Part shown: positions 21,086 to 60,082 of the stretch, piece by piece
How positions within the stretch are numbered: position 1 is the stretch's first letter
Layout: every line of letters begins with the position of its first letter
Source: Pseudogulbenkiania ferrooxidans 2002
GTDB taxonomy: Bacteria > Pseudomonadota > Gammaproteobacteria > Burkholderiales > Chromobacteriaceae
Assembly (NCBI RefSeq): GCF_000174355.1
Contig: NZ_ACIS01000002.1
Span: forward strand, 186,001-250,000
Length of the DNA stretch: 64,000 nt
Reading direction: 5' to 3'
Position numbers and translations under genes: made by a program
The notes under the pieces: model-generated
What the model was told of the DNA's origin: nothing
What the model saw: the letters and a program-made list of their open reading frames with translations, nothing else
Databases searched by the model: none

Positions 21086-22393
21086 GTGATCGCCAGCTTC
21101 CCCTTCATTACCAGCCGCCGCTTCCTGCCGCTGTTCGGCACCCAATTTCTCGGTGCCTTCAACGACAACCTGCTGAAAACCGCCATCGTGGTGCTGATCA
21201 GCTACCACGGCCTGAGTATCGGCGGCATGTCGCCGGCGATGCTGGTCAACCTGGCGGCGGGGCTGTTCATCCTGCCGTTCTTCCTGTTCTCCGCCACCGC
21301 CGGCAAGCTGTCGGAGAAGCTCGACAAGGCGCGCATCGCACGAACGGTGAAGCTGGTGGAAATCGCCATCATGCTGTTGGCCGGGGTCGGCTTCTTCGCC
21401 CACGCTGCCGGGCTGCTGCTGGCGGCGCTGTTCCTGATGGGGGTGCACTCCGCCTTTTTCGGCCCGCTGAAGTACTCGATCCTGCCGCAGTACCTGCACG
21501 AGCGCGAGCTGGTGGGGGGCAACGGGCTGATCGAGATGGGCACCTTCCTCGCCATCCTGATCGGCCAGATCGGCGGCAGCCTGATGACGCAAGGAGGGCC
21601 ATGGCTGATCGTAACGATGATCTGCGCCACCGCGCTGGCCGGTTACGCCTGCAGCCGGCAAATGCCGCCGGCGCCTCCTTCCTCGCCGGAACTGGCCCTT
21701 TCGGCCAACGTGCTGAAGGATTCGGTCGAGCTGGTCGGCAAGGCCTGGCGCATCGCCGACGTGAAGAGCGCCATCCTCGGCATTTCCTGGTTCTGGCTGA
21801 TGGGGGCGATCTACACCACCCAGCTGCCGACCTTCACCAAGCAGCACCTGGGCGGCGACGCCAACGTCTACACGCTGATGCTGGCGTTGTTCTCGATCGG
21901 TATCGGCGCGGGCTCGGTGGTTTGCGCCAAGCTGTCGCAGGGGCGGCTGCAGCTGGGACTGGTACTGGTCGGCAGCGCCGGTATGACGCTGTTCGGCGGC
22001 GACGTGGCACTGTCTTCGCTGGCCTTGCACCAGGGCGAACTGGTCGGCCTCGGCGCCTACCTCGTCACCCCCGCCAACTGGCGCCATATCGCCGACATCG
22101 CCCTGCTAGGGTTCTTCGGTGGCTTCTTCACCGTGCCGCTCTATACCTGGCTGCAGATCGCCAGCCCGGCCGCCTTCCGCTCACAGGCCATCGCGGCCAA
22201 CAACATCACCAACGGCTTCTACATGGTGTTCTCGGCCATCGCCAGCGCCGTGGTCCTGAAGCTGTTCGACAGCGTCGCGGTGCTGCTCCTGGTCACCGCT
22301 TCGGCCAACGTGCTGGCCACCTGGCACCTGGTACGGCGCGCTCCGAGCATCTGGCATAGCCGCTTCAGCTGGCTCAGACCGGTCAAATCCTGA
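21086..22393 (+). CDS. MFS transporter, lysophospholipid transporter LplT-like
   Basis: A 435-residue membrane protein with about twelve hydrophobic helices. The opening FLPLFGTQFLGAFNDNLLKT and the block FFGPLKYSILPQYL are hallmarks of the LplT / 2-acyl-glycerophosphoethanolamine transporter group, often fused to or paired with Aas acyltransferases. Here no acyltransferase is adjacent, although the window's first operon encodes a PlsC fusion. The start codon is a GTG at 21086 (33 bases after the ATPase stop), chosen because the family's first helix begins immediately after; no strong Shine-Dalgarno is seen. It carries a reverse copy of the GTTGGCCGAAG motif (22299-22309). Confidence 0.85.
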   Translation: MIASFPFITSRRFLPLFGTQFLGAFNDNLLKTAIVVLISYHGLSIGGMSPAMLVNLAAGLFILPFFLFSATAGKLSEKLDKARIARTVKLVEIAIMLLAGVGFFAHAAGLLLAALFLMGVHSAFFGPLKYSILPQYLHERELVGGNGLIEMGTFLAILIGQIGGSLMTQGGPWLIVTMICATALAGYACSRQMPPAPPSSPELALSANVLKDSVELVGKAWRIADVKSAILGISWFWLMGAIYTTQLPTFTKQHLGGDANVYTLMLALFSIGIGAGSVVCAKLSQGRLQLGLVLVGSAGMTLFGGDVALSSLALHQGELVGLGAYLVTPANWRHIADIALLGFFGGFFTVPLYTWLQIASPAAFRSQAIAANNITNGFYMVFSAIASAVVLKLFDSVAVLLLVTASANVLATWHLVRRAPSIWHSRFSWLRPVKS

Positions 22394-27347: not shown

Positions 27348-28739
27348 TCAGCCGGCCAGCTTGGCCGCCGCGTCACGCAAGGCGGTGCGCAGACCCTCCT
27401 CCACCACAGGGTGGTAGAACGGCATGTCGAGCATCTGCGCCACGGTCAGGCCTTGTTGCACACTCCACGCTAGCAGGTGGGCGATGTGCTCGGCACGCGG
27501 GCCGATCATCTCGGCACCGAGGAAGCGGCCGCTCTCCTTGTCGGCGTAGACATGCAGCAGACCCTTGTTCTTCAGCATCACGCGACTGCGGCCCTGGTCC
27601 TCGAAACTGACCTCGCCGGTGACGAAGCCGCCTTCGGCCAACGTGGCGAAGCTGGCGCCGACCATCATCATCTGCGGGTCGCTGAACACCACGCCGATCG
27701 GCGCACGGCGCAGGCCGGGACGCACATCGGGATAGCGCGCAGCGTTCTCGCCGGCGGTCTTGCCCTCGTCGGCCGCCTCGTGCAGCAGCGTCAGCGTATT
27801 GTTGGCGTCGCCGGCGAGGAAGATCGGGGCGTTGCCGCACTGCAGCGTTTCCGGGTCGAACAGCGGCACACCGCGGCCATCGCGCTGCAACGAGGTGTTC
27901 TCCAAACCCAGCCGCTGCACGTTGGGCGTACGGCCGGTGGACACCAGCACATGGTCGAAACGCTCTTCCCGCTCACCGCCGTCGAGATGCACGTAGCGGA
28001 TCACCGCCTCGTCGCCGTCACGGCGCATCTCCACCACCTTGGCCTTCGGATCGAGGTAGAACTCCTCTCCCAATGCACGGCGGGCGTAGTCACGTATCAC
28101 CGGGTCGGTGAGCGGACCCAGCGAGCCGCTGGCGCCGAATATCCTCACCTCGACGCCGAGGCGCGACAAGGCCTGGCCCAGTTCCACCCCGATCACGCCA
28201 GGGCCGAAGACGGCGACGCGGCGCGGCAGCGTGTCCCAGTCGAACACATCATCGTTCACCACCAGCAGGTCGCCGAACACCTGGAACGGTGCCGGAATCG
28301 CCGGTGACGAACCGGTGGCGATCACGACACGGCCGGCCTTGAGCTGGGTGTGCTCGTCGACCTGCAACAAGGTGTTGTCGATGAAACGGGCGTAGCCCTG
28401 CAGGCGGTCTTGTTCCGGAATACCTTCGACGCTGTTGACGACGAAGCCGACGAAACGGTCGCGCTCGCGCTTGACGCGTGCCATCACCTCACGCCCATCG
28501 ATGCGGATCACGCCATCGACGTGCACCCCGAACGGCGCGGTGTGACGTGCTTCGTGTGCGGCTTCGGCGGCGGCAATCAGCAGCTTGGACGGCATGCAGC
28601 CGACGCGGGCGCAGGTGGTACCGTAGGGGCCGCCCTCGATCAGGACGGCGGTCTTGCCGTTGGCCTTGGCGGCGCGGTAGGCGGCGAGGCCGGCAGTGCC
28701 GGCGCCGATGATGGCTACGTCGACGGAGAGGTTCTGCAT
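27348..28739 (-). CDS. Dihydrolipoyl dehydrogenase family flavoprotein
   Basis: A 463-residue class I pyridine nucleotide-disulphide oxidoreductase. It has the FAD-binding AIIGAGTAGLAAYRAAKANG, the redox-active disulphide TTCARVGCMPSKLL, a second nucleotide-binding fold (VAVFGPGVIGVELGQALSRL), and the C-terminal HPVVEEGLRTALRDA with the catalytic His-Glu region (MPFYHPVVEEG). It oxidises dihydrolipoamide with NAD+ (E3). However, PYGTTCARVGC replaces the GGTCLNVGC of typical E3 proteins; this variant form occurs in standalone lipoamide dehydrogenases. It is far from the E1/E2 operon at the left edge but could serve it. The neighbouring upstream gene is a peroxiredoxin-glutaredoxin. Confidence 0.88.
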   Translation of the reverse strand: MQNLSVDVAIIGAGTAGLAAYRAAKANGKTAVLIEGGPYGTTCARVGCMPSKLLIAAAEAAHEARHTAPFGVHVDGVIRIDGREVMARVKRERDRFVGFVVNSVEGIPEQDRLQGYARFIDNTLLQVDEHTQLKAGRVVIATGSSPAIPAPFQVFGDLLVVNDDVFDWDTLPRRVAVFGPGVIGVELGQALSRLGVEVRIFGASGSLGPLTDPVIRDYARRALGEEFYLDPKAKVVEMRRDGDEAVIRYVHLDGGEREERFDHVLVSTGRTPNVQRLGLENTSLQRDGRGVPLFDPETLQCGNAPIFLAGDANNTLTLLHEAADEGKTAGENAARYPDVRPGLRRAPIGVVFSDPQMMMVGASFATLAEGGFVTGEVSFEDQGRSRVMLKNKGLLHVYADKESGRFLGAEMIGPRAEHIAHLLAWSVQQGLTVAQMLDMPFYHPVVEEGLRTALRDAAAKLAG

Positions 28740-32364: not shown

Positions 32365-33312
32365 ATGAAATACCAACGGATCTGCGTTATCGGCGGCAGT
32401 GGCTTCATCGGTGGCTACCTGGGCGAAAGGTTGGCCGAAGCCGGGGTCGAGATCACCTTTGCCACCCGGAACTACGAACAGCACAAGGAAAAGCTGATCG
32501 TGCTGCCGAAAACCGAGCTGGTCGAAGTCGACGTACACGACCAGGCCAGTCTCAACGCCCTGCTGCACAGCCACGACGCCGTCGTCAGCATGGTCGGCAT
32601 CCTGCACGGCAGCCGCCAGGCGTTCGAACGCGCGCACGTTGCGCTCCCGGAGAAGATCATCCAGGCCTGCCGCTATAACGGTATCCGCCGCCTGATCCAT
32701 ATCAGCGCGCTCGGCGCCGACCCCAACGGCCCCAGCCACTACCAGCAGACCAAGGGCATTGCCGAACAACGCATCGAGGCCAGCGGGCTCGACTGGACCA
32801 TCCTGCGCCCGTCGGTGGTGTTTGGCCGCGGCGACAGTTTCCTGACCTTGTTCGCCCACCTCGCCCGCACCCTGCCGGTGCTGCCGCTGGCCGGTGCCGA
32901 CACCCGCTTCCAGCCGGTGTGGGCCGACGACGTGGCGCGCGCCATGGTAGCGTGCCTGGCCAACGACGCCACCGTCCATCACAAAATCGAACTCGCCGGC
33001 ACCAAGGTCTACGCCCTGCGCGAACTGGTGCGCTACGTCGCCGGTCTGAGCGGCCAACAGCCGCTCATCATCGGGCTACCGGCGGGGCTGGCCATGCTGC
33101 AGGCCGGACTGATGGAATTGCTGCCGGGACAACCGCTGATGAGCCGCGACAACGTACGCTCGCTCTCGGTCGACAACGTCGGCACCGGCCCCTTCCCGCG
33201 CGAGTTGCTCGGTTTCACGCCCACGGCGCTGGAAGCCATCGCGCCGCTCTACCTGGGCAAGGCCGAGCCGAACGAAGTGCGCTCGCACTTCCGCGCCGAG
33301 GCTGGACGTTGA
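32365..33312 (+). CDS. NAD(P)-binding epimerase-like protein (complex I NDUFA9 family)
   Basis: A 315-residue atypical short-chain dehydrogenase. The dinucleotide motif is [20 protein letters not shown]; later [20 protein letters not shown] replaces the YxxxK of true epimerases in the way seen in NDUFA9/YbjT-type proteins. [20 protein letters not shown] is the next conserved block. Homologues bind NADP(H) and are linked to complex I or quinone metabolism. The stop is one base before the cca start, so co-translation is likely. It contains AGG TTG GCC GAA at the motif copy 32430-32440. Confidence 0.88.
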
Positions 33313-41186: not shown

Positions 41187-41931
41187 GTGGGTGGCGCCAG
41201 ATCAAGAGTTGTTTTTGCAGCGGGCCGCCCAGGGCGAGGGAGCGTTCTGGCTCCACGCCGGGCACGGTAAAGGTATTGCTCAGCAGCAGAGAACCCGGCT
41301 GTCCTTCCGTCACGAATTTACGCCACAGCCTGGGCATCGGTTGCGGCGAGAGAAAGGCATAGACGGCATCGTATTCGGACAGGGGCTCGAGCCAGAGGCT
41401 GCGACAGGCAATACGCACATTAGCAGGACGCCCCGCCAGACACCAGCGCAGCCACGCCAGTGCCCAGGCCGCCCAGGCGGTTTCCAGCGCCGCGATCTGT
41501 AGATCGGGACGGCGCTCCGCCAGTTGCAAGGCCAGCTTGGCATCGCCGCAGCCGGCTTCGAGCAAACGGGCCTGCTCCGGCAAGGCTTCGGCCAACCGCT
41601 CCACCACCCGCGGCGAGGAGCGGTAGAACGGCACACGCTCCAGCCAGGCATTTCGCCCGATGGCGAAGGTCAACAGCAAGGCCAGCAGATAGGCCCACGC
41701 CGGCAGTGCCAGCTGGTAACAGTACACGACGGCGGGGGCAAACAGGCCATGTGCCAGCCAACTGCCACGACGCAAGCGCAGCAAGGCCGCCAGTGCCGCC
41801 GCCAGGAGCCCTTGCAACACCGACCAGGCCAGCGGCTGCAGTGCCGGAGCGATCAGGAACCAGGCGCCGAGCGCGGCGGCCAGTTGCAACAAGCCATGCC
41901 GCAACAAAGCGACGAATACGGCTCGACTCAA
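41173..41931 (-). CDS. Membrane-associated class I methyltransferase-like protein
   Basis: A 252-residue protein with three or four N-terminal hydrophobic segments (for example AYLLALLLTFAIGRNAWL) followed by a Rossmann methyltransferase fold: LLEAGCGDAKLALQLAERRP matches the SAM-binding motif (E/DxGxGxG variant, GCGD). The C-terminal LLLSNTFTVPGVEP fits a late strand. The substrate is unknown. It overlaps motB by four bases and the HDOD gene by 14, so it is embedded in the motility run. Contains a motif copy at 41586-41596 in the cgg TTG GCC GAA context. Confidence 0.78.
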   Translation of the reverse strand: MSRAVFVALLRHGLLQLAAALGAWFLIAPALQPLAWSVLQGLLAAALAALLRLRRGSWLAHGLFAPAVVYCYQLALPAWAYLLALLLTFAIGRNAWLERVPFYRSSPRVVERLAEALPEQARLLEAGCGDAKLALQLAERRPDLQIAALETAWAAWALAWLRWCLAGRPANVRIACRSLWLEPLSEYDAVYAFLSPQPMPRLWRKFVTEGQPGSLLLSNTFTVPGVEPERSLALGGPLQKQLLIWRHPHGTR

Positions 41932-45850: not shown

Positions 45851-47230
45851 TCAGACCAGTCCGCGCTGGTGCAGCACCGCCTCGCACTCGGTGACACACT
45901 GCACCGCCGTGTCGATCAGCTGATCGATCTCGGCCTTGCTGATCACCAGCGGCGGCGCCGCCACCATGTGGTCGCCGCAGGCGCGCATGATCAGGTTGTG
46001 GCGGAAGAAGATGTCGCGGCAGATCGTGCCCACCTCGCCCCAGTTGGGAAACAGCTCGTGGGTGGCCTTGTCCTTCACCAGCGTGAAGGCCTGGATCAGG
46101 CCGACGCCACGCACGTCGTCGACGTGGGCGAAGCCGCCGAACGCCTCGCGCCAGCGCTGCTGCATATAGGGACCGGTGTCGTGTTTGACGCGGTCGATGA
46201 TGCCCTCGTCGCGCAACGCCTTGACGTTGGCGTGCGCCACAGCCGCCGCGACCGGATGACCCGAATAGGTGAAACCATGGTTGAAATCGCCGCCTTCGGC
46301 CAACCCTTGCGCCACCTTGTCGCCGACGAATACCGCGCCGATCGGCAGGTAGCCGGACGACAAGCCCTTGGCGGCGGTAAACAGGTCCGGGTGAAAGCCA
46401 AACAACTGGTGGCCGAACCATTCGCCGGTGCGGCCGAAACCGCAGATCACCTCGTCGGCCACCAGCAGCACGTCGTACCGGCGGCAAATGCGCTCGACTT
46501 CCGGCCAATAGGTCGACGGCGGAATGATCACCCCGCCGGCGCCCTGGATCGGCTCGCCGACGAAGGCCGCCACCTTGTCCGGGCCCACTTCCAGAATTTT
46601 CTCTTCCACCCAGCGCGCCGCCACCACACCGAATTCCTCCGGCGACATGCCCTGGCCGTACCGGTACCACCACGGCTGCTCCACATGCACGATGCCTGGG
46701 ATCGGCAGATCGCCCTGCTCGTGCATATAGCTCATGCCGCCCAAGCTGGCTCCGCCGATAGTCGAGCCGTGGTAGCCGTTCCAGCGCCCGATCAGGGTCT
46801 TCTTCCCGGGCTTGCCCTTGACGTCCCAGTAACGGCGCACCATGCGGATCATGGTGTCGACCGACTCGGAGCCGGAGTTGGTGTAGAAGATGTGGCTGAA
46901 TCCTTCAGGCGCAACCTGTGACAGCAAGTGCGACAGCTCCACCACGGCCGGGTGAGTGGTCTTAAAAAAGGTGTTGTAGTAGGCCAGCTCGTCCATCTGG
47001 CGCCTGGCCACCTCGGACAAATCCTTGCGCCCATAGCCGATGTTGACGCACCACAGGCCGGCCATGCCGTCGAGGATCTTGTTGCCGTCCGAATCCCACA
47101 GAAACACGCCGTCGGCTTTGGTGATCACGCGGGCGCCCTGCTGGTTCAGCGACTCGGTGTCGGTGAACGGGTGCAGGTGATGCGCTGCGTCCAGCGCGCG
47201 CCATTGCTCGGTGGTACGTTCGCTCTGCAT
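45851..47230 (-). CDS. Class III aminotransferase, putrescine/polyamine-pyruvate type (SpuC-like)
   Basis: A 459-residue PLP enzyme. The PLP pocket includes SGSESVDTMIRMVRRYW and the lysine in LFTAAKGLSSGYLPIGAVFV; LLVADEVICGFGRTGEWFGH is the class III signature. It resembles putrescine- or beta-alanine-pyruvate aminotransferases, which use pyruvate and make alanine. A strong Shine-Dalgarno (GGGAGGAATCC) supports ATG 47230. Glutamine synthetase-like, PuuD-like, alanine dehydrogenase, PuuR-like and aldehyde dehydrogenase genes are nearby, giving a putrescine context. The gene carries a reverse copy of the GTTGGCCGAAG motif at 46294-46304. Confidence 0.92.
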   Translation of the reverse strand: MQSERTTEQWRALDAAHHLHPFTDTESLNQQGARVITKADGVFLWDSDGNKILDGMAGLWCVNIGYGRKDLSEVARRQMDELAYYNTFFKTTHPAVVELSHLLSQVAPEGFSHIFYTNSGSESVDTMIRMVRRYWDVKGKPGKKTLIGRWNGYHGSTIGGASLGGMSYMHEQGDLPIPGIVHVEQPWWYRYGQGMSPEEFGVVAARWVEEKILEVGPDKVAAFVGEPIQGAGGVIIPPSTYWPEVERICRRYDVLLVADEVICGFGRTGEWFGHQLFGFHPDLFTAAKGLSSGYLPIGAVFVGDKVAQGLAEGGDFNHGFTYSGHPVAAAVAHANVKALRDEGIIDRVKHDTGPYMQQRWREAFGGFAHVDDVRGVGLIQAFTLVKDKATHELFPNWGEVGTICRDIFFRHNLIMRACGDHMVAAPPLVISKAEIDQLIDTAVQCVTECEAVLHQRGLV

Positions 47231-47277: not shown

Positions 47278-47299
47278 GTTGGCCGAAGACTTGGCCAAC
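47278..47299 (+). repeat. GTTGGCCGAAG motif inside an inverted repeat, between aminotransferase and GS genes
   Basis: The 11-mer (47278-47288) is followed at once by a partial reverse copy, so GTTGGCC and GGCCAAC form a seven-base stem with an eight-base loop. It lies in an 81-base gap between two minus-strand genes. The arrangement is like uptake sequences at terminators in Neisseria, though this motif differs from the Neisseria one. Confidence 0.75.
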
Positions 47300-47311: not shown

Positions 47312-48646
47312 CTACACGTGCAGCAGTAGGAACTTGCGCTCCCACGGGCTGATCACGCGGAAGTACTCGGCATATTCCTTTTCCTTCATCGCCAGGTACA
47401 TCTTGACGAAGCGATGGCCCAGCACCTCAGCGATTTCGTGACAGTTGCGCAACGCCACCAGCGACTCCTCCGAAGAATGCGGGAACTGGTACGGCAGCTC
47501 GTAAGCGTCGGTCTGGCGCGGCTCCATTGGCTGGATCTTGTTGACAATGCCGAGGTAGCCGCAGGCCAATGTGGCCGCCATGGCGATGTAGGGGTTGGCA
47601 TCGACGCCGGGCACGCGGTTTTCCACGCGGCGCGCCTTGGGCGAGGAATGCGGTACGCGCAGGCCAACGGTACGGTTGTCGTAGCCCCACTCGACGTTGG
47701 TCGGTGCCGCGGTGTAGCGCGACAGACGGCGGAACGAATTCACGTAGGGCGCGAACAGCGGCATCACCTGTGGCACGTACTTCTGCAGCCCGCCGATAAA
47801 GTGGAAAAATAGCTCCGACGGCGTACCGTCCTCGTTAGAAAACACGTTCTGGCCGGTCTTTTTATCCTTCAGGCTCTGATGGATGTGCATGGCGCTGCCC
47901 GGTTCGTTCTCCATCGGCTTGGCCATGAAAGTGGCGTACATATTGTGACGGAACGCCGCCTCGCGCACGGTGCGCTTGAACAGGAACACCTGATCGGCCA
48001 GCTCCAGCGGGTTGCCATGCAGGAAGTTGATTTCCATCTGCGCCGTGCCAACCTCGTGGATCAGCGTGTCCACCTCGAGTTCCTGCGCATGACAGTAGTC
48101 GTAGATATCCTCGAACAGCGGATCGAACTCGTTGACCGCGTCGATGGCGTAGGAGCGGCGGCCGAACTCAGCACGGCCGGTGCGACCGATGGGCGGAGCC
48201 AGCGGGATGTCCGGGTCAGGGTTGGGCGACAGCAGGTAGAACTCCATCTCCGGCGCCACCACCGGCTCCAGCCCCAGCTCGTCGAACAGATCGAGTACGT
48301 GCTTCAGGACGTTGCGCGGCGCCACGTCCACCGGCGTGCCGTCGGAACGGTAGGCGTCGTAGATCAGCTGCGCGGTCGGATCGACCGCCCACGGCACGTG
48401 GCGCAGGGTATTCTCATCGGGCCTCAGCACCATGTCCGGGTCGGTCAGGTCCATCATGCTGTCGTCCGGGTAATCACCGGTGACGGTCTGGATCAGCACC
48501 GCCTCCGGCAGACGCATTTCCGGCTCCACGGCGAACTTGTCTTTCGGCACGATCTTGCCGCGTGCGACCCCGGTAAAGTCGGGGACAATGCATTCCATCT
48601 CGGTGATGCGATGCTCGCGCAACCACTCAAAAATCTGGTTTTCCAT
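47312..48646 (-). CDS. Glutamine synthetase-like gamma-glutamylpolyamine synthetase (PuuA type)
   Basis: A 444-residue GS-fold ligase. Catalytic blocks include VAPEMEFYLLSPNPD (the ExE metal site), EVGTAQMEINFLHGNPLELA, MENEPGSAMHIHQSLKDKKT and WGYDNRTVGLRVPHSSPKAR with the ATP-contact arginines. The length and the GSAMHIHQS block fit the class that glutamylates putrescine (PuuA, SpuI) rather than the housekeeping GlnA. ATG 48646 follows a GGTAGGGGTAG stretch. Placement next to a PuuD-like hydrolase and an aldehyde dehydrogenase favours gamma-glutamylputrescine synthesis (inference). Confidence 0.88.
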   Translation of the reverse strand: MENQIFEWLREHRITEMECIVPDFTGVARGKIVPKDKFAVEPEMRLPEAVLIQTVTGDYPDDSMMDLTDPDMVLRPDENTLRHVPWAVDPTAQLIYDAYRSDGTPVDVAPRNVLKHVLDLFDELGLEPVVAPEMEFYLLSPNPDPDIPLAPPIGRTGRAEFGRRSYAIDAVNEFDPLFEDIYDYCHAQELEVDTLIHEVGTAQMEINFLHGNPLELADQVFLFKRTVREAAFRHNMYATFMAKPMENEPGSAMHIHQSLKDKKTGQNVFSNEDGTPSELFFHFIGGLQKYVPQVMPLFAPYVNSFRRLSRYTAAPTNVEWGYDNRTVGLRVPHSSPKARRVENRVPGVDANPYIAMAATLACGYLGIVNKIQPMEPRQTDAYELPYQFPHSSEESLVALRNCHEIAEVLGHRFVKMYLAMKEKEYAEYFRVISPWERKFLLLHV

Positions 48647-48715
48647 TTTACTACCCCTACCTCTATAGATCCTTGGCCATCGATGGCTCTGTCTCACAAC
48701 GGGTCCGAAGCCCGC

Positions 48716-51429: not shown

Positions 51430-52920
51430 ATGTCTCGCACCCACGCCGAATGGCAGCAGCTGGCCGCGACGCTCACCATCGAAGGCCGGCTCTTCATCGA
51501 TGGCGAGTATGCCAACGCCCACGACAGCCGCACCTTTGATTGCATCAACCCGGCCACCGGCGACAAGCTCGCCGAGGTGGCGTGGTCTGCCGCCGCCGAT
51601 GTCGACACCGCCGTCGCGGCGGCCCGCCGAGCCTTCGAATCCGGTGTCTGGTCCGGGTTGCCGCCGCTGAAGCGCGGCAAGATACTCAAACGTTTCGCTG
51701 CGTTGATCCGCCAGCACCGCGACGAACTGGCGCTGCTGGAAACCCTCGACATGGGCAAGCCGATCGGCGACTCCATCACGGTGGACGTGCCGGGGGCTGC
51801 GTATTGCGTGGAGTGGTTCGCCGAGGCCATCGACAAGGTGGGCGGCGAAGTGGCGCCGATCGACCCCAAGCTGGTCGGCCTGGTCACGCGCGAACCGGTC
51901 GGCGTGGTGGCCGCGGTGGTGCCGTGGAATTTTCCGATCCTGATGGCGAGCTGGAAGTTCGCCCCGGCACTGGCCGCCGGCAATGCAGTGATCGTCAAAC
52001 CGTCCGAGAAATCACCATTGACGGCCATCCGGCTGGCCGGGCTGGCCAAACAGGCGGGCATTCCCGACGGCATCTTCCAGGTCCTGCCCGGCGCCGGCGA
52101 CGTGGGCAAGCTGTTGGCGCTGCACATGGGGGTGGACTGCATCGCCTTCACCGGCTCGACCGCCGTCGGCAAGCTGATCGCCGGCTACGCCGCGCAGTCC
52201 AACCTCAAGCGCGTCTGGCTGGAGCTGGGCGGCAAGTCGCCCAACATCATCCTGGAAGACTGCCCCGACCTCGCCCGCGCCGCGCGCACCGCCGCCGGCG
52301 CCATCTACTACAACATGGGCGAGATGTGCACCGCCGGCTCGCGCGTGCTGGTCCAGCGCAGCATCAAGGAGCGCTTTCTGGAAGCGTTCAGGAAGGCGGC
52401 CCAGGGCTACTATCCGACAGACCCGCTCGATCCGGCCGCCGGCATGGGGGCGATCGTCGACCGGACCCAGTTCGACAAGGTGCTGTCCTACATCGATCAG
52501 GGTCAGGGCGAAGGCGCCACCCTGATCTGCGGCGGCCAGGCGACACAGGTAGCCGGCAAGGGCTATTTCATCGAGCCGACCGCGTTCGATTGTCCGCACC
52601 CTGACCTGACCATCTGCCGCGAAGAAATCTTCGGGCCGGTACTGTCGGTGATCACCTTCGATTCGATCGACGAGGCGGTGCGCATCGCCAACGATACCGA
52701 ATACGGTCTGGCGGCCGCGGTATGGACCGCCAACGTCAGCACGGCGCACCAGGTGTCGCGCTCGCTGCGTGCCGGCACGGTCTGGGTCAACTGCTACGAC
52801 GAGGGCGGCGACATGAACCTGCCGTTTGGCGGCTTCAAACAGTCCGGCAACGGTCGCGACAAGAGCCTGCACGCACTGGAGAAGTACACCGAGCTGAAGA
52901 GCACGCTGATCAAGCTGTAA
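51430..52920 (+). CDS. puuC: NAD(P)-dependent aldehyde dehydrogenase (PuuC-like)
   Basis: A 496-residue aldehyde dehydrogenase. Key sites are VVPWNFPILMASWKFAPALA, the glutamate in LELGGKSPN, and the catalytic cysteine in NMGEMCTAGSRVLVQ. The C-terminal GGFKQSGNGRDKSLHALEKY fits the gamma-glutamyl-gamma-aminobutyraldehyde dehydrogenase group. ATG 51430 is used because CCGGAGAAGTCC lies just upstream. It would oxidise the aldehyde made from glutamylated putrescine before PuuD releases GABA. It ends immediately before a GTTGGCCGAAG motif and a terminator. Confidence 0.92.
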   Translation: MSRTHAEWQQLAATLTIEGRLFIDGEYANAHDSRTFDCINPATGDKLAEVAWSAAADVDTAVAAARRAFESGVWSGLPPLKRGKILKRFAALIRQHRDELALLETLDMGKPIGDSITVDVPGAAYCVEWFAEAIDKVGGEVAPIDPKLVGLVTREPVGVVAAVVPWNFPILMASWKFAPALAAGNAVIVKPSEKSPLTAIRLAGLAKQAGIPDGIFQVLPGAGDVGKLLALHMGVDCIAFTGSTAVGKLIAGYAAQSNLKRVWLELGGKSPNIILEDCPDLARAARTAAGAIYYNMGEMCTAGSRVLVQRSIKERFLEAFRKAAQGYYPTDPLDPAAGMGAIVDRTQFDKVLSYIDQGQGEGATLICGGQATQVAGKGYFIEPTAFDCPHPDLTICREEIFGPVLSVITFDSIDEAVRIANDTEYGLAAAVWTANVSTAHQVSRSLRAGTVWVNCYDEGGDMNLPFGGFKQSGNGRDKSLHALEKYTELKSTLIKL

Positions 52921-52922
52921 AG

Positions 52923-52933
52923 GTTGGCCGAAG
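52923..52933 (+). repeat. GTTGGCCGAAG motif directly after the puuC-like stop codon
   Basis: The motif starts two bases after the TAA, with the common extra 5' G at 52922, and sits seven bases before a bidirectional terminator hairpin. Confidence 0.8.
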
Positions 52934-52939
52934 ACGCAA

Positions 52940-52963
52940 AAAAGGCACCTCGCGGTGCCTTTT
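52940..52963. terminator. Bidirectional terminator between puuC-like gene and yajQ
   Basis: AAAAGGCACC pairs with GGTGCCTTTT over a TCGC loop, with A-run and T-run flanks serving both convergent genes. Confidence 0.92.
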
Positions 52964-52983
52964 CCGTTGCAGCTCGTCCCGGC

Positions 52984-53469: not shown

Positions 53470-53758
53470 AGACGGTTTTACCTCGTACATTCGAGGCCAA
53501 AATTCTAGTGCCTGCGCCACGAAAAGTCACCCTTGTGACCGGGCGGTCGCCTCCGCTTGCCAGCTTCCGGCTGGCAACCGATGATGGTAACGGTTCATCG
53601 CCCCGATCAAAGGACTCCGACATGCTGCTCACGCCCGAACAACTGGCCGGCTTCACCATGGCCGCGATTCTCATCACGCTTTCCCCCGGCCCGGATAATT
53701 TGATGGTGCTGAGCCTCGGCATTGCACGTGGCAAGAAACAGGGCATTGCCTTCGGCCT
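53403..53758 (+). repeat. Direct repeat, copy 1 (356 bases, second copy at 54105-54460)
   Basis: By base-by-base comparison this segment and 54105-54460 appear identical, offset by 702 bases. It spans the 5' end of yajQ, the yajQ-rhtB intergenic region and the first 46 codons of the RhtB-type exporter. Confidence 0.9.
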
Positions 53759-53894
53759 ACAGGGTCAGCACCTTGTCGGCGGATTCAATGCGGGCGTCGC
53801 TGCCATTGAACTCGTAACCGGCGGAGACCTCCTTGTTGGACTGATCCAGTGCAATTGGCACGTCCACCACGTTCACTTCGGACACGATATCTGA
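53622..53894 (+). pseudogene. Truncated 5' copy of the RhtB/LysE exporter gene
   Basis: Starts MLLTPEQLAGFTMAAILITL, the same 46 codons as the intact gene at 54324, then at 53759 runs into antisense yajQ sequence and stops at 53892-53894. The Shine-Dalgarno and upstream region are also duplicated, so a 90-residue nonsense fusion could still be translated. Confidence 0.88.
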
Positions 53895-53903
53895 AGATGG
53901 CAT
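53757..53903 (-). pseudogene. Diverged partial yajQ copy (48 codons, in frame)
   Basis: Reads [20 protein letters not shown] and continues in register with intact yajQ to residue 48, then meets a stop. It has nine amino-acid differences but no frameshift, so it looks like another allele rather than sequencing noise. The conserved RNAVD is changed to PIALD. Confidence 0.8.
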
Positions 53904-54033
53904 AGACGGTTGTACCTCAAACATTCCAAGCCCAAATTCTAGTGCCTGCCCAACTCAAAATGGCACTTGTGACTGGGCGGTCGCCTCCGCTTGCAGCCTT
54001 CCGGCTGGCAACCGATGATGGTAACGGTTCATC

Positions 54034-54171
54034 AGGGTCAGCACCTTGTCGGCGATTCGATGCGGGCGTCGCTGCCCTTGAAGTCGTACGGGTGGAGACT
54101 CTTGTGGACTGATCCACGGCGTTGCGCACTTCCACCACATTCACTTCGGAGACGATATCAAAAGACGGCAT
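54034..54171 (-). pseudogene. Second partial yajQ copy, frameshifted
   Basis: Corresponds to 53327-53469 of intact yajQ but has five single-base deletions in its first 72 bases, each inside a doubled base, which destroys the frame. From 54105 onward it matches copy 1 exactly. Confidence 0.8.
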
Positions 54172-54460
54172 AGACGGTTTTACCTCGTACATTCGAGGCC
54201 AAAATTCTAGTGCCTGCGCCACGAAAAGTCACCCTTGTGACCGGGCGGTCGCCTCCGCTTGCCAGCTTCCGGCTGGCAACCGATGATGGTAACGGTTCAT
54301 CGCCCCGATCAAAGGACTCCGACATGCTGCTCACGCCCGAACAACTGGCCGGCTTCACCATGGCCGCGATTCTCATCACGCTTTCCCCCGGCCCGGATAA
54401 TTTGATGGTGCTGAGCCTCGGCATTGCACGTGGCAAGAAACAGGGCATTGCCTTCGGCCT
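54105..54460 (+). repeat. Direct repeat, copy 2 (matches 53403-53758)
   Basis: Second copy of the 356-base repeat. Beyond 54460 the exporter gene continues intact, so this is the functional 5' end for the RhtB-type exporter. Confidence 0.9.
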
Positions 54461-54965
54461 GGGCTGCGCGCTGGGCTGCATCAGCCACACCCTGCTCGCC
54501 GCCGTGGGTATCAGTGCGCTGATCGCCGCCTCGCCGCTCGCCTTCACCGCCCTCAAGGTCGGCGGCGGAGCGTATCTGGTCTACCTCGGCGTGCAGGCAC
54601 TGCGCAGCCCCGGCGCCAGTTTCCGGCCCGGTACGTCCGGCCAGGGTTCGGCCAACCCGGCGCGCACGATGTTTGCCAAGGGACTGCTGGCCAACGCCAT
54701 CAACCCCAAGGTGGTGCTGTTCTTCCTCGCCTTCCTGCCTCAGTTCGTCGATACCGGCCGCGGCATGGCGGGTTGGCAGACGCTGGTGCTGGGGCTGATC
54801 TTCACGCTGCAGGCGGCGGTCTTGTTCGGGCTGCTGGGTTATTTTTCCGGCCACGTCGGCCAGTGGCTGCAGCGCAAGCCCAGCATGAGCAAGTGGCTCG
54901 ACCGGCTGGCCGGCAGCATCTTCGTCGCCCTCGGCCTGCGCCTGATCCTGGCGCGCAGCCACTGA
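54324..54965 (+). CDS. RhtB/LysE-family amino-acid exporter
   Basis: A 213-residue inner-membrane exporter with about six hydrophobic segments. The family signature LITLSPGPDNLMVLSLGIAR (sequence P-G-P-[DN]) is near the N-terminus and the second conserved segment is GGGAYLVYLGVQALRS. AAAGGA lies before ATG 54324. The family exports amino acids such as homoserine, threonine, lysine or leucine; the substrate is undefined. Its 5' end exists twice (see 53622-53894). A GC-rich hairpin follows the stop. Confidence 0.92.
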   Translation: MLLTPEQLAGFTMAAILITLSPGPDNLMVLSLGIARGKKQGIAFGLGCALGCISHTLLAAVGISALIAASPLAFTALKVGGGAYLVYLGVQALRSPGASFRPGTSGQGSANPARTMFAKGLLANAINPKVVLFFLAFLPQFVDTGRGMAGWQTLVLGLIFTLQAAVLFGLLGYFSGHVGQWLQRKPSMSKWLDRLAGSIFVALGLRLILARSH

Positions 54966-55491: not shown

Positions 55492-58400
55492 ATGACCGTC
55501 CTGCAACGCCTTGCCGCCCTGATCCAGTTTGTCCAGCACACCGCCCGCCTGCACGCAGCTCCAGTCACCGATCTTGCCAAACACGGCGACTTTCTCGCCC
55601 TGGAAGCCGAACTGCACCAACTGCCGGGCATCTCGCTGAACCGCGAGGACGACGAGGGCGAGGAAGTCTGGCTTGCCGTCGAACGCCTGCAGCCGCTGCC
55701 CATGCCCCAGCCGGAAGCCCCCTTGCTGCAATGCTGGCTGGAGCCGTCGGCCACACCCCACAAGGGAGCGATCAAGCCACCGGCCCTGGCCCCGGCGATC
55801 CCCTTCGCGGCGCTGGAAGCATTGGGCTACGTCCGCGGCGAACTGGCCGAGCCGGCACGCGACGTGGCGCTGTCCGACTTCTCCGACCGCGCACGCGTCG
55901 AAGCCTTGTTCGAGGCCTACCGCAGCGGCCCGTGGCAGACCTGGGCCGACGCAGAACAGCGCCGCCAGAAAACCATGGCGCTCTATAACCAGCTGTTCCG
56001 CCTGAAACAGACGCTGGACGGCATGATCGCCGACAACCAGCTGGAGATCGTCTGGGGCAGCGGCGTCGCCGTCTGGCTGAAGGACGGGGTGCGCTTGTGC
56101 TACCCGCTGTTGACCCGGCCGGTCGAACTGGCGCTGAACTCCGGCACCATGGCGCTGGAACTGCGCCCGCGCGACCTGCCCGCAGCCCTCGAAGCGGACG
56201 CGCTGAACGCGCTCGACGTGGCCGGCCTGGCCGATTTCGAACGCCAGGCGCGCCTGTGGCTGGAAAACGCCACGCACGAGTATTCGCCGTTCGACAGCGC
56301 CAGCTACCAGCCCCTGCTACAAGCCGCCGCCGCCCACCTCGACCCCGACGCCCGCCTGCTGCCGCGCATCCCGGACACCGCTCCCGCCCCCCTCCCCAGC
56401 CCGGACGGCCAACTGCAGCTGGTCGACAGCTGGGCCGTGTTCGCCAGGCCGCGCACCGCCAACCTGCTGGTGCAGGACCTGCAACGCTTCAGCGACACGC
56501 TGCCGCCAACGCCCGAGCCCCTTCCCCCCGCGCTGGCCCAACTTCTGAGCGAGCCCTCGAACCAGCACCTCGATCGCCCGCTGCCGGCCTTCCGCGGGCT
56601 GTCCGCGGTGAGCGGCAGCAACGGCAATGGCACAGCACGCGACCTGTTCTTCCCCAAGCCGTTCAACGACGAGCAGGTGCGCATCGTGCAGATGCTGGAA
56701 CTACACGATGGCGTGGTGGTGCAAGGCCCGCCGGGCACCGGCAAGACCCACACCATCGCCAACATCATCTGTCACTACCTGGCCCAGGGCCAACGCGTGC
56801 TGGTGACCTCGATGAAGGAGCCGGCGCTCAAGGTGCTGGAGGAGAAGCTGCCCGACGCCATCCGCCCGCTGGCGATCAGCCTGCTGGCGGGCGAGCGCGA
56901 CGAAGCCAAGCGCTTCGAGTATTCGGTCAACAAGATCGCCAGCGAAATCCAGTCGCTCGACCGCACCGCGCTGGCGCGCTCGATTGCCGCCCTGGAAGAC
57001 ACCGTCGACCGCCTGCACGGCAACCTGCAGCGCGTCGACCGCGAGATCGACCAGTGCGCCGCGCGCAACCTGCAGCCGCTGACGCTGGACGACGAGCAGA
57101 TCGATCCGCTGCGCGCCGCCGAGCAAATCGGCGCCCTGTCCGAGCGGCTAGCGACGCTGCCGGACGAACTCACCGCCGAGGAACGCCACCGCCCGCAGTT
57201 CGACGACGACGCCATCATCCGGCTGCGCGCGGCACGCCGCGAGCTTGGCGCGGCACTCGCCTACCTGCCGCACGCCCTGCCCGACCCGGCCGAACTCCCC
57301 ACCATGGAAACGCTGCACAAGGCGCATCAGGACTTGCTGCAGGCGGTGCGCTTGCGGCAGGCGATCGCCAGCGGCGACGTGCCGACGCTGGCCAACGGCG
57401 CACTACACCAAGCCGCAGGGTTGGCCGAAGCCCTGCGCGACTTGTCCGCCCGGCAGGTCGAAATCGCCAGCGCCGCGGCGCCGTGGGCGCGCTCCTGTCT
57501 CGACCTGCTGCGCCTGCCGGCCTGCGCGGCGATGTTGCGTCTGCTGGAGGAGTGGGACAGCGCCGCCGAGGCGGAACTGGCGCGCCGCCCACAGTTGCTG
57601 CAGCGCCCGGTGATGCTGCCGGACGGGCTGGAGCAGGACGCCGAGCTGGTCGAGGCCATCGGCCAGCTCGCCGCCGGCCGCAGCGCCTTCGGCCTGGCCG
57701 GCTGGTTCGGCAAGGGGGAAGCCAAGAAGAGGCTGGCGCAGGTCGAAGTGTTGGGCCAGCCGGCGCAGACGAGCGCCGACTGGGGCCAGGTCGCGGCCCA
57801 CCTGCAGCATCGCCAGGCGCTGCGCCGCCTGCTGCTGCGCTGGAACGCCATCGCGGCCGAGTTCGGCGCCGAAACCCTGGCCAGCACCGACCCGCTGCTG
57901 GTGGAGCGGGCCCGCGAGCGCTGCCGGCTGATCCGGCGCATGGCCGAAGCGGTGCAACTGGAAACCGAGGTGCTGCCGCGCCTGCGCCACAGCCTGCCCG
58001 ACGCGGCCTGGCCGGAGACCCTGCTGGAGCAGCCGGCACGCCTGCTCGAGGCCCAGCGCATCCTGCTGCACCACCTCAGCTGCCAGCGCCTCGAAGGCGC
58101 CGCCACGCTGCGCGAACAGTTACTGGCGCTGAGCCGCCACAGCGGCGGGCCGTGGGCGGAGCAACTGGCCGCCCTGGCCGATCAGCTCGGCACGCCGGAA
58201 TTCGACGCCGGCACGCTGTCTGAAACATGGCAAGACCTCTGCCGGCAACTGGCCGCGCTGCACACCCTACGCCCCGCGCTCGACACCGTCCGCACCGAGG
58301 TGCCGCGCATCGCCCAGTCCGGCGCTCCACTCTGGGCGCGCCAGCTCTGCCAGCAGCCCGCCGGCGCCGAGTCCGACCCGTTGCTGCCACAGGACTGGGC

Positions 58401-60042
58401 GGCGCTGTGGCAGGCCAAGCGCCTGCGCCACGCGCTGCAGCAACTGGACACCCGCGCCCGCCTCAAGACGTTGGCCGAAGAACGCCGCCAGCTGGAAAAA
58501 CAGCTGGCGCACAGCTACCAGGAGTTGGTCGCCCAGCGCACCTGGCTCAAACTCGCCGACAACGCCACACCCGAGGTGCGCAGCGCGCTGGGCCTCTATT
58601 CCGCCGCCATCCGGCTGATCGGCAAGGGCACCGGCAAGCGCGCCGTACGCTACCGCCGCGACGCCCGCGCCGCCGCGGCCAAGGCCACCCCGGCAATTCC
58701 GTGCTGGATCATGCCGCACTACCGCATCGCCGAATCGCTGCCGGCCGAGCTGGGCTGCTTCGACCTGGTGATCATCGACGAGGCCTCGCAATCCGACCTC
58801 AGCGCCCTGCCCGCGCTGTTGCGCGCCAGGAAAGTGCTGGTGGTGGGCGACGACAAGCAGGTCTCGCCAGAGGGCGTCGGACTGGAAGAAGACAAGGTGT
58901 TGACGCTGATGCAGCGCTTCCTCGGCGATCAAGTCGCGCTGTACCGCCCGCTGATGACGCCGGAGCGTTCGATCTACGACCTGTTCAAGGTCGCCTTCGC
59001 CGCCAGCGCGGTGATGCTGAAGGAGCACTTCCGCTCGGTCGGCCCGATCATCGAGTACGCCAAGCGCGAGTTCTACCACCACGAGCTCAAGCCGCTGCGC
59101 CTGCCCACCGCGAGCGAGCGGCTCGACCCGCCGCTGATCGACGTGCTGGTGGAAGACGGCCACTGCGGCAACGACAACAGCAACCGCGCCGAAGCCGCCT
59201 TCATCGTCGAGGAAATCCGCCGCCTCGCCGCCGACCCGGCCACCGCCGGGCGCTCCATCGGCGTGGTGTCGCTGCTGGGCGACAAGCAGGCGATCAAGGT
59301 ATGGGAGCTGATCCGCGAGGAGCTGGGCGAGGCGCTGATGGCGCGCCACGACATCGCCTGCGGCGACGCACGCACCTTCCAGGGCAAGGAGCGCGACATC
59401 ATGTTCCTCAGCATGGTGGTGTCCGGCAAGCCGCACGCGGTAACGCGCGACAGCTTCGCGCAGCGCTTCAACGTCGCCGCCTCGCGCGCCCGCGACCGCA
59501 TGTACCTGGTGCGCAGCGTCGAAATCAGCCAGCTGAGCCCGGCCGACGAGTTGCGCCGCAAGCTGATCGAGCACTTCCACACCCCCTATCTGCTCGACCA
59601 GCAACAGGTAACCGACCTGCGGACGCTGTGCGAATCGCCATTCGAAACCGAGGTCTACGACGAACTGACCGGGCGCGGCTACAAGGTCACGCCGCAGGTC
59701 AAGGTCGGCGGATTCCGCCTCGACTTGGTGGTGGAAGGCGACAACGACACCCGCCTCGCCATCGAGTGCGACGGCGACCGCTACCACGGCGCCGCGCAAT
59801 GGCCCGACGACATGCGCCGCCAGCGCATCCTGGAGCGCGCCGGCTGGCAGTTCTGGCGCTGCTTCGCCTCCACCTTCGTGCTGAACCGCGAGGCGGTGCT
59901 GCAAGACCTGCTCGCCACGTTGGCCGCGCGCGGCATCGCCCCGCTGACCCAGGCGCGACGGGTGGCCAGCCCGCACGTCGAGCGGCGCACCTTCCGCGCC
60001 AGCCCCAGGCCCAGCCAAGCGGAAGACGCCGTCCCCGCCTGA
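55492..60042 (+). CDS. Superfamily 1 helicase with C-terminal Vsr/MTES_1575-type nuclease domain
   Basis: A 1516-residue protein. Residues about 1-390 have no recognised domain. Walker A is VVVQGPPGTGKTHTIANIIC (about residue 408); a long insertion follows with coiled-coil-like helices; the helicase core resumes at DLVIIDEASQSDLSALPALL (about residue 1090), KVLVVGDDKQVSPEGVG, ARTFQGKERDIMFL and RFNVAASRARDRMYLV. The last 120 residues (FRLDLVVEGDN; LAIECDGDRYHGAAQWPDDM; RILERAGWQFWRCF) match the restriction-endonuclease-like MTES_1575/Vsr fold with its Asp/Glu residues. Upf1-like helicase-nuclease fusions are found among defence genes such as Hhe, but the role here is unproven. Three copies of GTTGGCCGAAG lie in or just after it. 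Confidence 0.9.
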   Translation: MTVLQRLAALIQFVQHTARLHAAPVTDLAKHGDFLALEAELHQLPGISLNREDDEGEEVWLAVERLQPLPMPQPEAPLLQCWLEPSATPHKGAIKPPALAPAIPFAALEALGYVRGELAEPARDVALSDFSDRARVEALFEAYRSGPWQTWADAEQRRQKTMALYNQLFRLKQTLDGMIADNQLEIVWGSGVAVWLKDGVRLCYPLLTRPVELALNSGTMALELRPRDLPAALEADALNALDVAGLADFERQARLWLENATHEYSPFDSASYQPLLQAAAAHLDPDARLLPRIPDTAPAPLPSPDGQLQLVDSWAVFARPRTANLLVQDLQRFSDTLPPTPEPLPPALAQLLSEPSNQHLDRPLPAFRGLSAVSGSNGNGTARDLFFPKPFNDEQVRIVQMLELHDGVVVQGPPGTGKTHTIANIICHYLAQGQRVLVTSMKEPALKVLEEKLPDAIRPLAISLLAGERDEAKRFEYSVNKIASEIQSLDRTALARSIAALEDTVDRLHGNLQRVDREIDQCAARNLQPLTLDDEQIDPLRAAEQIGALSERLATLPDELTAEERHRPQFDDDAIIRLRAARRELGAALAYLPHALPDPAELPTMETLHKAHQDLLQAVRLRQAIASGDVPTLANGALHQAAGLAEALRDLSARQVEIASAAAPWARSCLDLLRLPACAAMLRLLEEWDSAAEAELARRPQLLQRPVMLPDGLEQDAELVEAIGQLAAGRSAFGLAGWFGKGEAKKRLAQVEVLGQPAQTSADWGQVAAHLQHRQALRRLLLRWNAIAAEFGAETLASTDPLLVERARERCRLIRRMAEAVQLETEVLPRLRHSLPDAAWPETLLEQPARLLEAQRILLHHLSCQRLEGAATLREQLLALSRHSGGPWAEQLAALADQLGTPEFDAGTLSETWQDLCRQLAALHTLRPALDTVRTEVPRIAQSGAPLWARQLCQQPAGAESDPLLPQDWAALWQAKRLRHALQQLDTRARLKTLAEERRQLEKQLAHSYQELVAQRTWLKLADNATPEVRSALGLYSAAIRLIGKGTGKRAVRYRRDARAAAAKATPAIPCWIMPHYRIAESLPAELGCFDLVIIDEASQSDLSALPALLRARKVLVVGDDKQVSPEGVGLEEDKVLTLMQRFLGDQVALYRPLMTPERSIYDLFKVAFAASAVMLKEHFRSVGPIIEYAKREFYHHELKPLRLPTASERLDPPLIDVLVEDGHCGNDNSNRAEAAFIVEEIRRLAADPATAGRSIGVVSLLGDKQAIKVWELIREELGEALMARHDIACGDARTFQGKERDIMFLSMVVSGKPHAVTRDSFAQRFNVAASRARDRMYLVRSVEISQLSPADELRRKLIEHFHTPYLLDQQQVTDLRTLCESPFETEVYDELTGRGYKVTPQVKVGGFRLDLVVEGDNDTRLAIECDGDRYHGAAQWPDDMRRQRILERAGWQFWRCFASTFVLNREAVLQDLLATLAARGIAPLTQARRVASPHVERRTFRASPRPSQAEDAVPA

Positions 60043-60049
60043 CGACAAG

Positions 60050-60082
60050 GTTGGCCGAAGCCCGACAGACGGGGCTTCGGCC
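60050..60082 (+). repeat. GTTGGCCGAAG motif in an 11-base perfect inverted repeat after the helicase gene
   Basis: The motif at 60050-60060 forms the left arm of a hairpin (GGCCGAAGCCC, 60053-60063) whose exact complement GGGCTTCGGCC is at 60072-60082, with an eight-base loop. It starts seven bases after the stop codon, a terminator position, but no T-run follows. Confidence 0.85.

Follow-up and report, generated by a model that had tools for sequence, protein, structure and literature searches.

Behind several genes of the window (i.e., the whole 64,000-nt stretch of DNA analysed here) stands a short word, GGTTGGCCGAAG in its 12-base form, which the initial annotation described as sitting at gene ends inside hairpins, a habit it likened to that of the DNA uptake sequences (DUS) of Neisseria. 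Two questions are raised by this locus: is such placement a general property of the word in this genome, and what kind of word is it?

The word at three gene ends of the window

The word GTTGGCCGAAG begins at position 60050, 7 nt beyond the end of a large helicase/nuclease-like ORF (55492-60042), the 12-mer extending over 60049-60060 on the plus strand. As annotated, this copy supplies the left arm of an inverted repeat that is perfect over 11 bp (60053-60082, plus strand), in which GGCCGAAGCCC (60053-60063) pairs with GGGCTTCGGCC (60072-60082) over a loop of 8 nt. The left arm consists of the last eight bases of the word plus CCC, with the first three (GTT) outside the stem, and the right arm is a partial inverted copy of the word that lacks AAC. 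The predicted RNA fold is stable (-29.5 kcal/mol, z = -4.1); the hairpin is not accompanied by a T-tract, and a terminator role there is only putative. In the relative G047, the first base of the core differs at this site and the hairpin is kept with one G-C to G-U change (pairing by eye). The ORF itself specifies 1516 amino acids with helicase parts; its matches to two anti-phage models, ProA and Hhe, fall far short of the respective cut-offs.

On the minus strand, the word and a half copy form the seven-base stem that had been noted at 47278-47299 (GTTGGCC pairing with GGCCAAC, loop 8), behind a glutamine-synthetase-like gene (47312-48697, minus strand) and in the gap between that gene and a transaminase gene. 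The stem is weak on its own: its fold has a z of -2.2, and a 7-bp stem is reached by 2.7% of flank-shuffled non-coding copies. The same gap contains GCTGGCCGAA...TTCGGCCAGC in G047 and the perfect AGGTTGGCCGAAGCGCTTCGGCCAACCT in G038, a genome of another genus, along with a different, GC-rich but shorter palindrome in G010 and a partial, shorter repeat in G046 (pairing by eye in each case); G051 has an unrelated hairpin there. At this one locus, the pattern fits a gene end at which stems may get rebuilt from the word.

At the third site, the 12-mer (52922-52933, plus strand; word start at 52923) is indeed located between a stop codon and a terminator-like structure: it follows, at a distance of 2 nt, the TAA (52918-52920) of an aldehyde dehydrogenase gene and precedes a separate hairpin, AAAAGGCACC-TCGC-GGTGCCTTTT (52940-52963, plus strand), which is not built from the word. 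The copy is unpaired in the fold of 52921-52970 (z = -1.4), save for a 2-bp pairing in the minimum-energy form. The 12-mer is conserved here in G047 and absent in G046. The three sites thus vary, from a strong hairpin without a T-tract over a weak 7-bp stem to an unpaired copy before a separate hairpin. A scan of 44.5-62.5 kb with a terminator consensus gave 16 matches vs 12.8 in shuffles, i.e., no more than chance, and none of the three hairpins (60053-60082, 47278-47299 and 52940-52963) was among them.

The window also carries core copies, GTTGGCCGAA, within coding DNA, which were compared with G047 over the 47,860 window bases that align at 93%. Conserved in G047 are those at 17412-17421, 32430-32439, 57420-57429 and 58470-58479 on the plus strand, and at 14928-14937, 21700-21709, 22300-22309, 41587-41596 and 46295-46304 on the minus strand. 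The copy at 13450-13459 (plus) has one base different, and those at 27633-27642 and 54647-54656 (both minus) are not conserved, while the copies at 3465-3474, 3972-3981, 8993-9002 (all plus) and 20895-20904 (minus) are outside the alignment. Since 10 of the 15 aligned core copies of the window are intact (four copies being unaligned), against a background of 57% for coding and 50% for non-coding 10-mers, the comparison shows no excess conservation of the copies between the two genomes.

One further orthologous place, the gap behind apbC (mrp), was considered for following a switch of dialect. A paired hairpin is present behind this gene in the genome under study (G000) and absent from G047; the gap proved uninformative because G047 is without the segment and most genomes have the next gene directly behind apbC. 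Two genomes of genus g5 carry a copy of the spelling GTTGGCCGAG there, 120 and 134 nt past the stop. Elsewhere in the window, at 53500-54650, a direct repeat with an offset of ~702 bp maps to G047 in an overlapping manner; the promoter-like and terminator-like matches in its two units are identical (53530/54232 and 53545/54247).

Abundance, placement and pairing in the genome

In all, the genome contains 497 copies of the 12-mer in 4,225,125 bases, and its reversed control word occurs once. The core GTTGGCCGAA was counted in 863,164 bases, i.e., the window and 40 further stretches that together make up ~20% of the genome: 218 copies were found vs 10.7 expected from a 5th-order Markov model, which extrapolates to ~1,070 genome-wide. 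One short word is, therefore, strongly over-represented across the whole chromosome, as expected of a DUS. The meningococcal genome is smaller than the present one and has more copies, ~1,900 being the number given in the literature accessible to us. The context around the core reads AGGTTGGCCGAAGcC, with strong conservation over ~12 bases and weak conservation beyond; variants of the 12-mer with one changed base are uncommon unless the change is in the first or last position.

Gene boundaries in the placement statistics are approximate, as they come from a simple hexamer caller built in-house. The headline figures are limited to 400 kb (L021-L040, on contigs C18-C20) that were picked before any copy position in them was known, because the other stretches had been chosen with a listing of copies in view: L017-L019 have listed inverted pairs and L020 listed copies, and the copies of L001-L016, which cover the initial 160 kb of two long contigs (C11 and C12), were also in the prior listing.

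These 400 kb contain 98 copies, 74 coding and 24 non-coding. Of the latter, 13 are part of a perfect stem of at least 8 bp, vs 2 of 480 in a flank-shuffled null, and the coding copies never are (0/74). Sixteen of 22 non-coding copies lie at most 50 nt from a stop codon (null 23%), and just one of 23 is in a divergent gap. The same picture emerges from the full 863 kb, where 66 of the 218 copies are not wholly coding and 152 are coding, non-coding DNA amounting to 16.5% (P = 5e-7). The nearest stop is a median of 26 nt away (n = 62), compared to 142 nt for random positions. Where both neighbouring genes are known (n = 63), 42 copies are in tandem, 20 in convergent and one in divergent gaps, whereas ~39, 10 and 14, respectively, are expected by length (chi-square P = 9e-6); for the deficit in divergent gaps alone (1/63 vs ~14), P is 5e-6. 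Motif copies at gene ends in hairpins are thus real and general. The survey of stop distances and inverted pairing that had been proposed, run here on ~20% of the genome, yielded a strongly non-random placement, instead of the randomly placed, unpaired intergenic copies that would have spoken against the idea.

Over all samples, stems of at least 8 bp involve 27 of the 66 non-coding copies and ~2% of the 152 coding ones. The 27 copies constitute 18 distinct hairpins, half of which (9/18) contain two exact cores. Exact pairs of the form GTTGGCCGAAG-(0-30)-CTTCGGCCAAC number 23 genome-wide with none for the control (one arrangement counted), and the loops between paired copies vary in both sequence and length. 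Pairing of inverted copies in hairpins behind genes is another trait of DUS. The accessible text of PMC1852404 reports that ~55% of such terminators in Neisseria contain the uptake word, which bears out the annotated habit of DUS as inverted pairs in terminators, and describes a strong bias in the arrangement of the pairs. Such a bias is not seen in our sample, in which the two-copy hairpins are split 5 to 4 between the arrangements, albeit in a small number (n = 9).

These data bear on what the word could be other than an uptake sequence. A preferred terminator stem or an RNA stability hairpin, without a role in DNA uptake, could explain copies just behind genes, the avoidance of divergent gaps and the many stems; as in intrinsic (Rho-independent) terminators, a GC-rich stem is found shortly past the stop codon, and some of the word hairpins have A/T tracts on both sides (e.g., in L017 and L033). 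We nevertheless consider this explanation very unlikely. Unlike in intrinsic terminators, most copies (152/218) are in genes, where stems of at least 8 bp are lacking in the 400 kb (9 of 35 coding copies have one in the relative G051). Many non-coding copies are, moreover, single, and a terminator needs a stem rather than one fixed spelling with genus-specific variants. Of the 18 distinct hairpins, only seven are followed by a T-rich tail, judged on the strand of a gene that ends there; random windows of 13 nt located 10-80 nt past a stop pass this test in 8% of cases.

Chromosome maintenance or protein-binding sites (Chi-like, segregation, nucleoid protein or modification sites) are likewise known for high density and lineage-specific words, and the word has both. 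We hold a function of that sort to be highly improbable, as inverted pairs behind genes are not expected of such sites, and a strand bias is absent. The 12-mer occurs 234 times in forward and 263 times in reverse orientation, the sampled contigs behave likewise, and the counts are near equal in 100-kb samples of six relatives (at most 21 to 30). In G034, a single contig, the split is 31/35 in 100 kb, and 65 listed forward copies extend to 640 kb, where ~72 are expected without bias. The near-equal strand counts in the sampled stretches, measured without a located replication origin, differ from the orientation bias of a Chi-like word.

Finally, transposition of a short, mobile palindrome (REP, MITE or similar) is scarcely credible as the origin of the copies: the word has the high copy number, the inverted pairs and the intergenic preference of such palindromes, but its strong conservation fades past ~12 bases and leaves no conserved unit of more than ~20, the loops vary, and 152 of the 218 copies are in genes, 82 of them in the single reading frame xxG-TTG-GCC-GAA (Leu-Ala-Glu).

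Spellings of the word among relatives

We compared 61 genomes of the family, the genera of which are labelled g1 to g10. The word-bearing family is probably Chromobacteriaceae. The transaminase of the window has as its best PDB matches 7q9x, 6s4g and 4a6r, the last of which we take to be a structure from Chromobacterium violaceum. From a scan of named genomes, 80 MiaA loci were kept, almost all from betaproteobacteria by title, with a Pseudogulbenkiania MAG as the best (73%); the word was absent from the 20.8 kb of the MAG locus, and the other 79 loci contain three copies in 1.3 Mb (reversed control: six).

The spelling GTTGGCCGAA is used in its own genus and in four other genera, and the spellings GTTGGCCGCA and GTTGGCCGAG in one genus each; the genera beyond these are without all three. 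In the own genus, the 12-mer is frequent in all three genomes, with 497, 405 and 68 copies (the last genome being 84% complete). Elsewhere, it is found 515 times in G010, the sole one of ten g2 genomes, 51 times in G036, 218 in G037, 595 in G038 (2.9 Mb) and 131 in G045; the two g5 genomes have 17 and 15 copies and the remaining genomes of the family none to five. Among 300 genomes of the order, only members of this family exceed six copies. The other two spellings were detected by k-mer analysis in 100-kb samples, with 61 copies of GTTGGCCGCA in G051 and 66 of GTTGGCCGAG in G034. Counted in whole genomes, AGGTTGGCCGCA occurs 680-1095 times in all 13 genomes of g10 and 15 times or fewer in the other 48, while AGGTTGGCCGAG occurs 731 and 428 times in the two g5 genomes, 27 times in G036 and nine times or fewer elsewhere. 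Lineage-specific dialects are also characteristic of DUS. A k-mer search for a DUS-like word in word-free genera found none in G003 and G018 (260 kb each) or in G039 (80 kb); for genus g4, the three spellings were counted only.

Placement in hairpins extends to both other spellings. Stems of at least 8 bp involve 11 of 26 non-coding copies in G051 (null 3/520) and 10 of 23 in G034 (null 4/460). Among the relatives that use GTTGGCCGAA, the numbers are 3 of 15 in G037 and, in 100-kb samples, 0 of 9 in both G038 and G010; exact pairs nevertheless number 25 and 17 in the complete genomes of the latter two. For coding copies, the fractions are 9/35 (G051), 4/43 (G034), 0/40 (G037), 0/31 (G038) and 2/21 (G010). 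We left G045 (5 of 42 "non-coding" copies in stems) out of the placement counts, because the coding fraction of its gene calls is only 0.21.

Other repeated words were noticed in the course of the comparison. In G051 (L144-L148), back-to-back inverted pairs share CCAACGTTGG, counted 16 times in 100 kb when both strands are taken together. In G010 (L124-L128), a second frequent word, GTTTGCCGAA, occurs 14 times in 100 kb beside 30 copies of GTTGGCCGAA; this genome perhaps has two dialects. The top k-mers of G018, which belongs to a word-free genus, stem from a repeat around GTGTTCCCCACGTGCGTGGGGATGAACCG that resembles a CRISPR repeat (L134-L138 and L218-L225; joined and judged by eye).

Candidate uptake machinery and relation to described uptake sequences

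The genome encodes ComEC, which was found in 59 of the 61 family genomes, word-free genera included; the two misses (G057 and G058) are word-bearing g10 genomes. It also has 16 matches to the N-methyl pilin model, of which three PilE-like ones were compared with solved structures. For the pilin at G000:C20:189996-190418, the best PDB matches are the ComP entries 2m3k, 5hz7 and 2nba (E 4.5e-13 to 6e-12), with PilE entries at E 2e-8 or weaker, and the NCBIfam matches are to generic pilins only; the two other PilE-like pilins have no ComP match at E 0.01. With the ComP-like query and a threshold of E 0.001, each of the 61 family genomes yielded pilin matches. They are strong in the word-free genera g2 and g3 (best E 1e-25 to 1e-38) and weak in g4 and g8, where they may represent another pilin. 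As both are present nearly everywhere, word-free genera included, and the ComEC misses are word-bearing, neither the ComP-like pilin nor ComEC predicts the word, and their presence is ruled out as a predictor. The ComP-like pilin is a candidate receptor and no more than that; FimT-like pilins, suggested by three GspH matches in the genome, would be alternative candidates.

Taking this evidence together, we regard AGGTTGGCCGAA(G) as very probably a DUS, i.e., a self-recognition word, scattered along the chromosome, that would render DNA of the cell's own kind the favoured substrate of uptake mediated by type IV pili. The word is abundant, has a narrow consensus, is placed behind genes in inverted pairs and is spelled according to genus, in a genome with ComEC and a ComP-like pilin. 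The argument that an uptake role gains weight when a different word shows the Neisseria habit is borne out by the non-random placement and the pairing, and the spellings and the pilin lend the uptake idea further support, uptake itself being deduced from sequence features. Our best reading is that of a new group of DUS dialects, probably of Chromobacteriaceae, part of whose copies would be reused as terminator stems. Several of the above results count against it: ComEC and the pilin also occur in word-free genera, the pilin has generic NCBIfam matches only, window copies show no excess conservation in G047, the hairpin behind apbC is absent there, stems are few or lacking in the samples of G037, G038 and G010 but present at coding copies in G051, and T-rich tails accompany a minority of the hairpins.

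The following mechanism can be envisaged. A minor pilin, most likely the one at G000:C20:189996-190418, would bind the word on free DNA, the pilus would carry the bound DNA through the outer membrane, and ComEC would let a single strand pass inward. This strand would then recombine with the chromosome and swap word-less for word-bearing DNA, and copies would, as a result, build up wherever they are tolerated. Gene ends would tolerate them best; there, two inverted copies, or a copy and a partial one, would form a GC-rich stem that could double as a terminator stem. One spelling per genus is as expected if receptor and word change together.

The word resembles the DUS dialects of Neisseriaceae (12-mers, e.g., AGGCCGTCTGAA, AGGTCGTCTGAA and AGGCTGCCTGAA) in being a 12-base word with a strict core, in having lineage dialects and inverted pairs behind genes, and in the ComP-like pilin of the genome. 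All eight dialects in the accessible text of PMC3630211 have CTG at positions 6-8 and A at position 10; further dialect spellings are given in the accessible parts of PMC7371117, PMC12061091 and PMC10715097. In register, the present word has CCG at positions 6-8 and is, therefore, not one of the eight; the spelling GTTGGCCGAG also lacks the A at position 10. What is new is the dialect family with CCG in place of CTG. In register, AGGTTGGCCGAA has 9 of 12 bases in common with AG-mucDUS and with AG-simDUS. Compared with seven of the eight dialects, shuffled words do as well with P = 0.010 when every tested register and either strand is allowed; the match is suggestive only, as the comparison was made after the word had been seen. 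The uptake signal sequence (USS) of Pasteurellaceae is likewise an abundant short word also found in terminator hairpins (accessible text of PMC1852404), but it is spelled differently (AAGTGCGGT in H. influenzae) and belongs to a gammaproteobacterial lineage.

According to the accessible text of PMC3630211, no DUS was obvious in Laribacter, Lutiella, Pseudogulbenkiania NH8B and two Chromobacterium genomes, no ComP was found by BLAST in C. violaceum, and the DUS system was inferred to have arisen after the split from C. violaceum. Unlike Neisseriaceae DUS, the present word is found in what is probably the Chromobacterium/Pseudogulbenkiania family, four genomes of which were reported in 2013 as lacking an obvious DUS. 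Table S1D of the same paper gives the over-represented 10-mers of the five genomes in which no DUS was obvious, and the word itself may already be printed there. In a text search of the literature outside subscription papers and supplements, six 10-mers had no match as whole words. Within the same scope, such a word is not described in the listed titles and abstract openings on uptake sequences or transformation in Chromobacteriaceae, Neisseriales and Xanthomonadaceae.

A further-reaching proposal, which we put forward tentatively and with somewhat more doubt than conviction, is that the family (probably Chromobacteriaceae) speaks a separate branch of the uptake language of Neisseria, with word-for-word homology and a change of the core from CTG to CCG, that DUS-guided transformation predates the family split and was lost in the word-free genera, and that the three spellings and their own ComP-like pilins are receptor-word pairs. 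If so, DUS-guided transformation would be older than the split instead of arising after it as proposed in 2013, and the spellings and pilins would be natural receptor-word pairs in which the core itself changes.

Sequence-guided DNA uptake has been firmly described in few lineages. Its known range would widen with dialects that have a changed core and belong to bacteria beyond Neisseriaceae sensu stricto. Such a group would also cast doubt on when the system arose according to PMC3630211, and provides candidate word-receptor pairs for studying how ComP reads DNA. Missing or wrong-dialect words might also serve to pick out foreign islands in these genomes; in Neisseriaceae, islands have been flagged in that manner (accessible text of PMC7371117).

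Some stretches with few or unusual copies were looked at individually. L025-L027 are word-poor (0, 1 and 1 copies), and no mobile genes were recognised among four proteins tested, which counts against the DUS reading. In its favour, L012 has no copies in 20 kb and carries, at L012:2249-10203 (~62-70 kb of contig C12), a run of three integrase-like genes, one clear and two weak, followed by a RecD2-like helicase gene. In G034, 8 of the 17 copies of GGTTGGCCGAAG, the wrong dialect there, are within 7 kb (G034:C1:1158708-1165803), possibly an island from an AA-dialect donor or else an internally repeated gene. In G047, 4 of the 15 copies of the g10 spelling AGGTTGGCCGCA are clustered within ~16 kb (G047:C6:18767-35185), which is possibly imported DNA.
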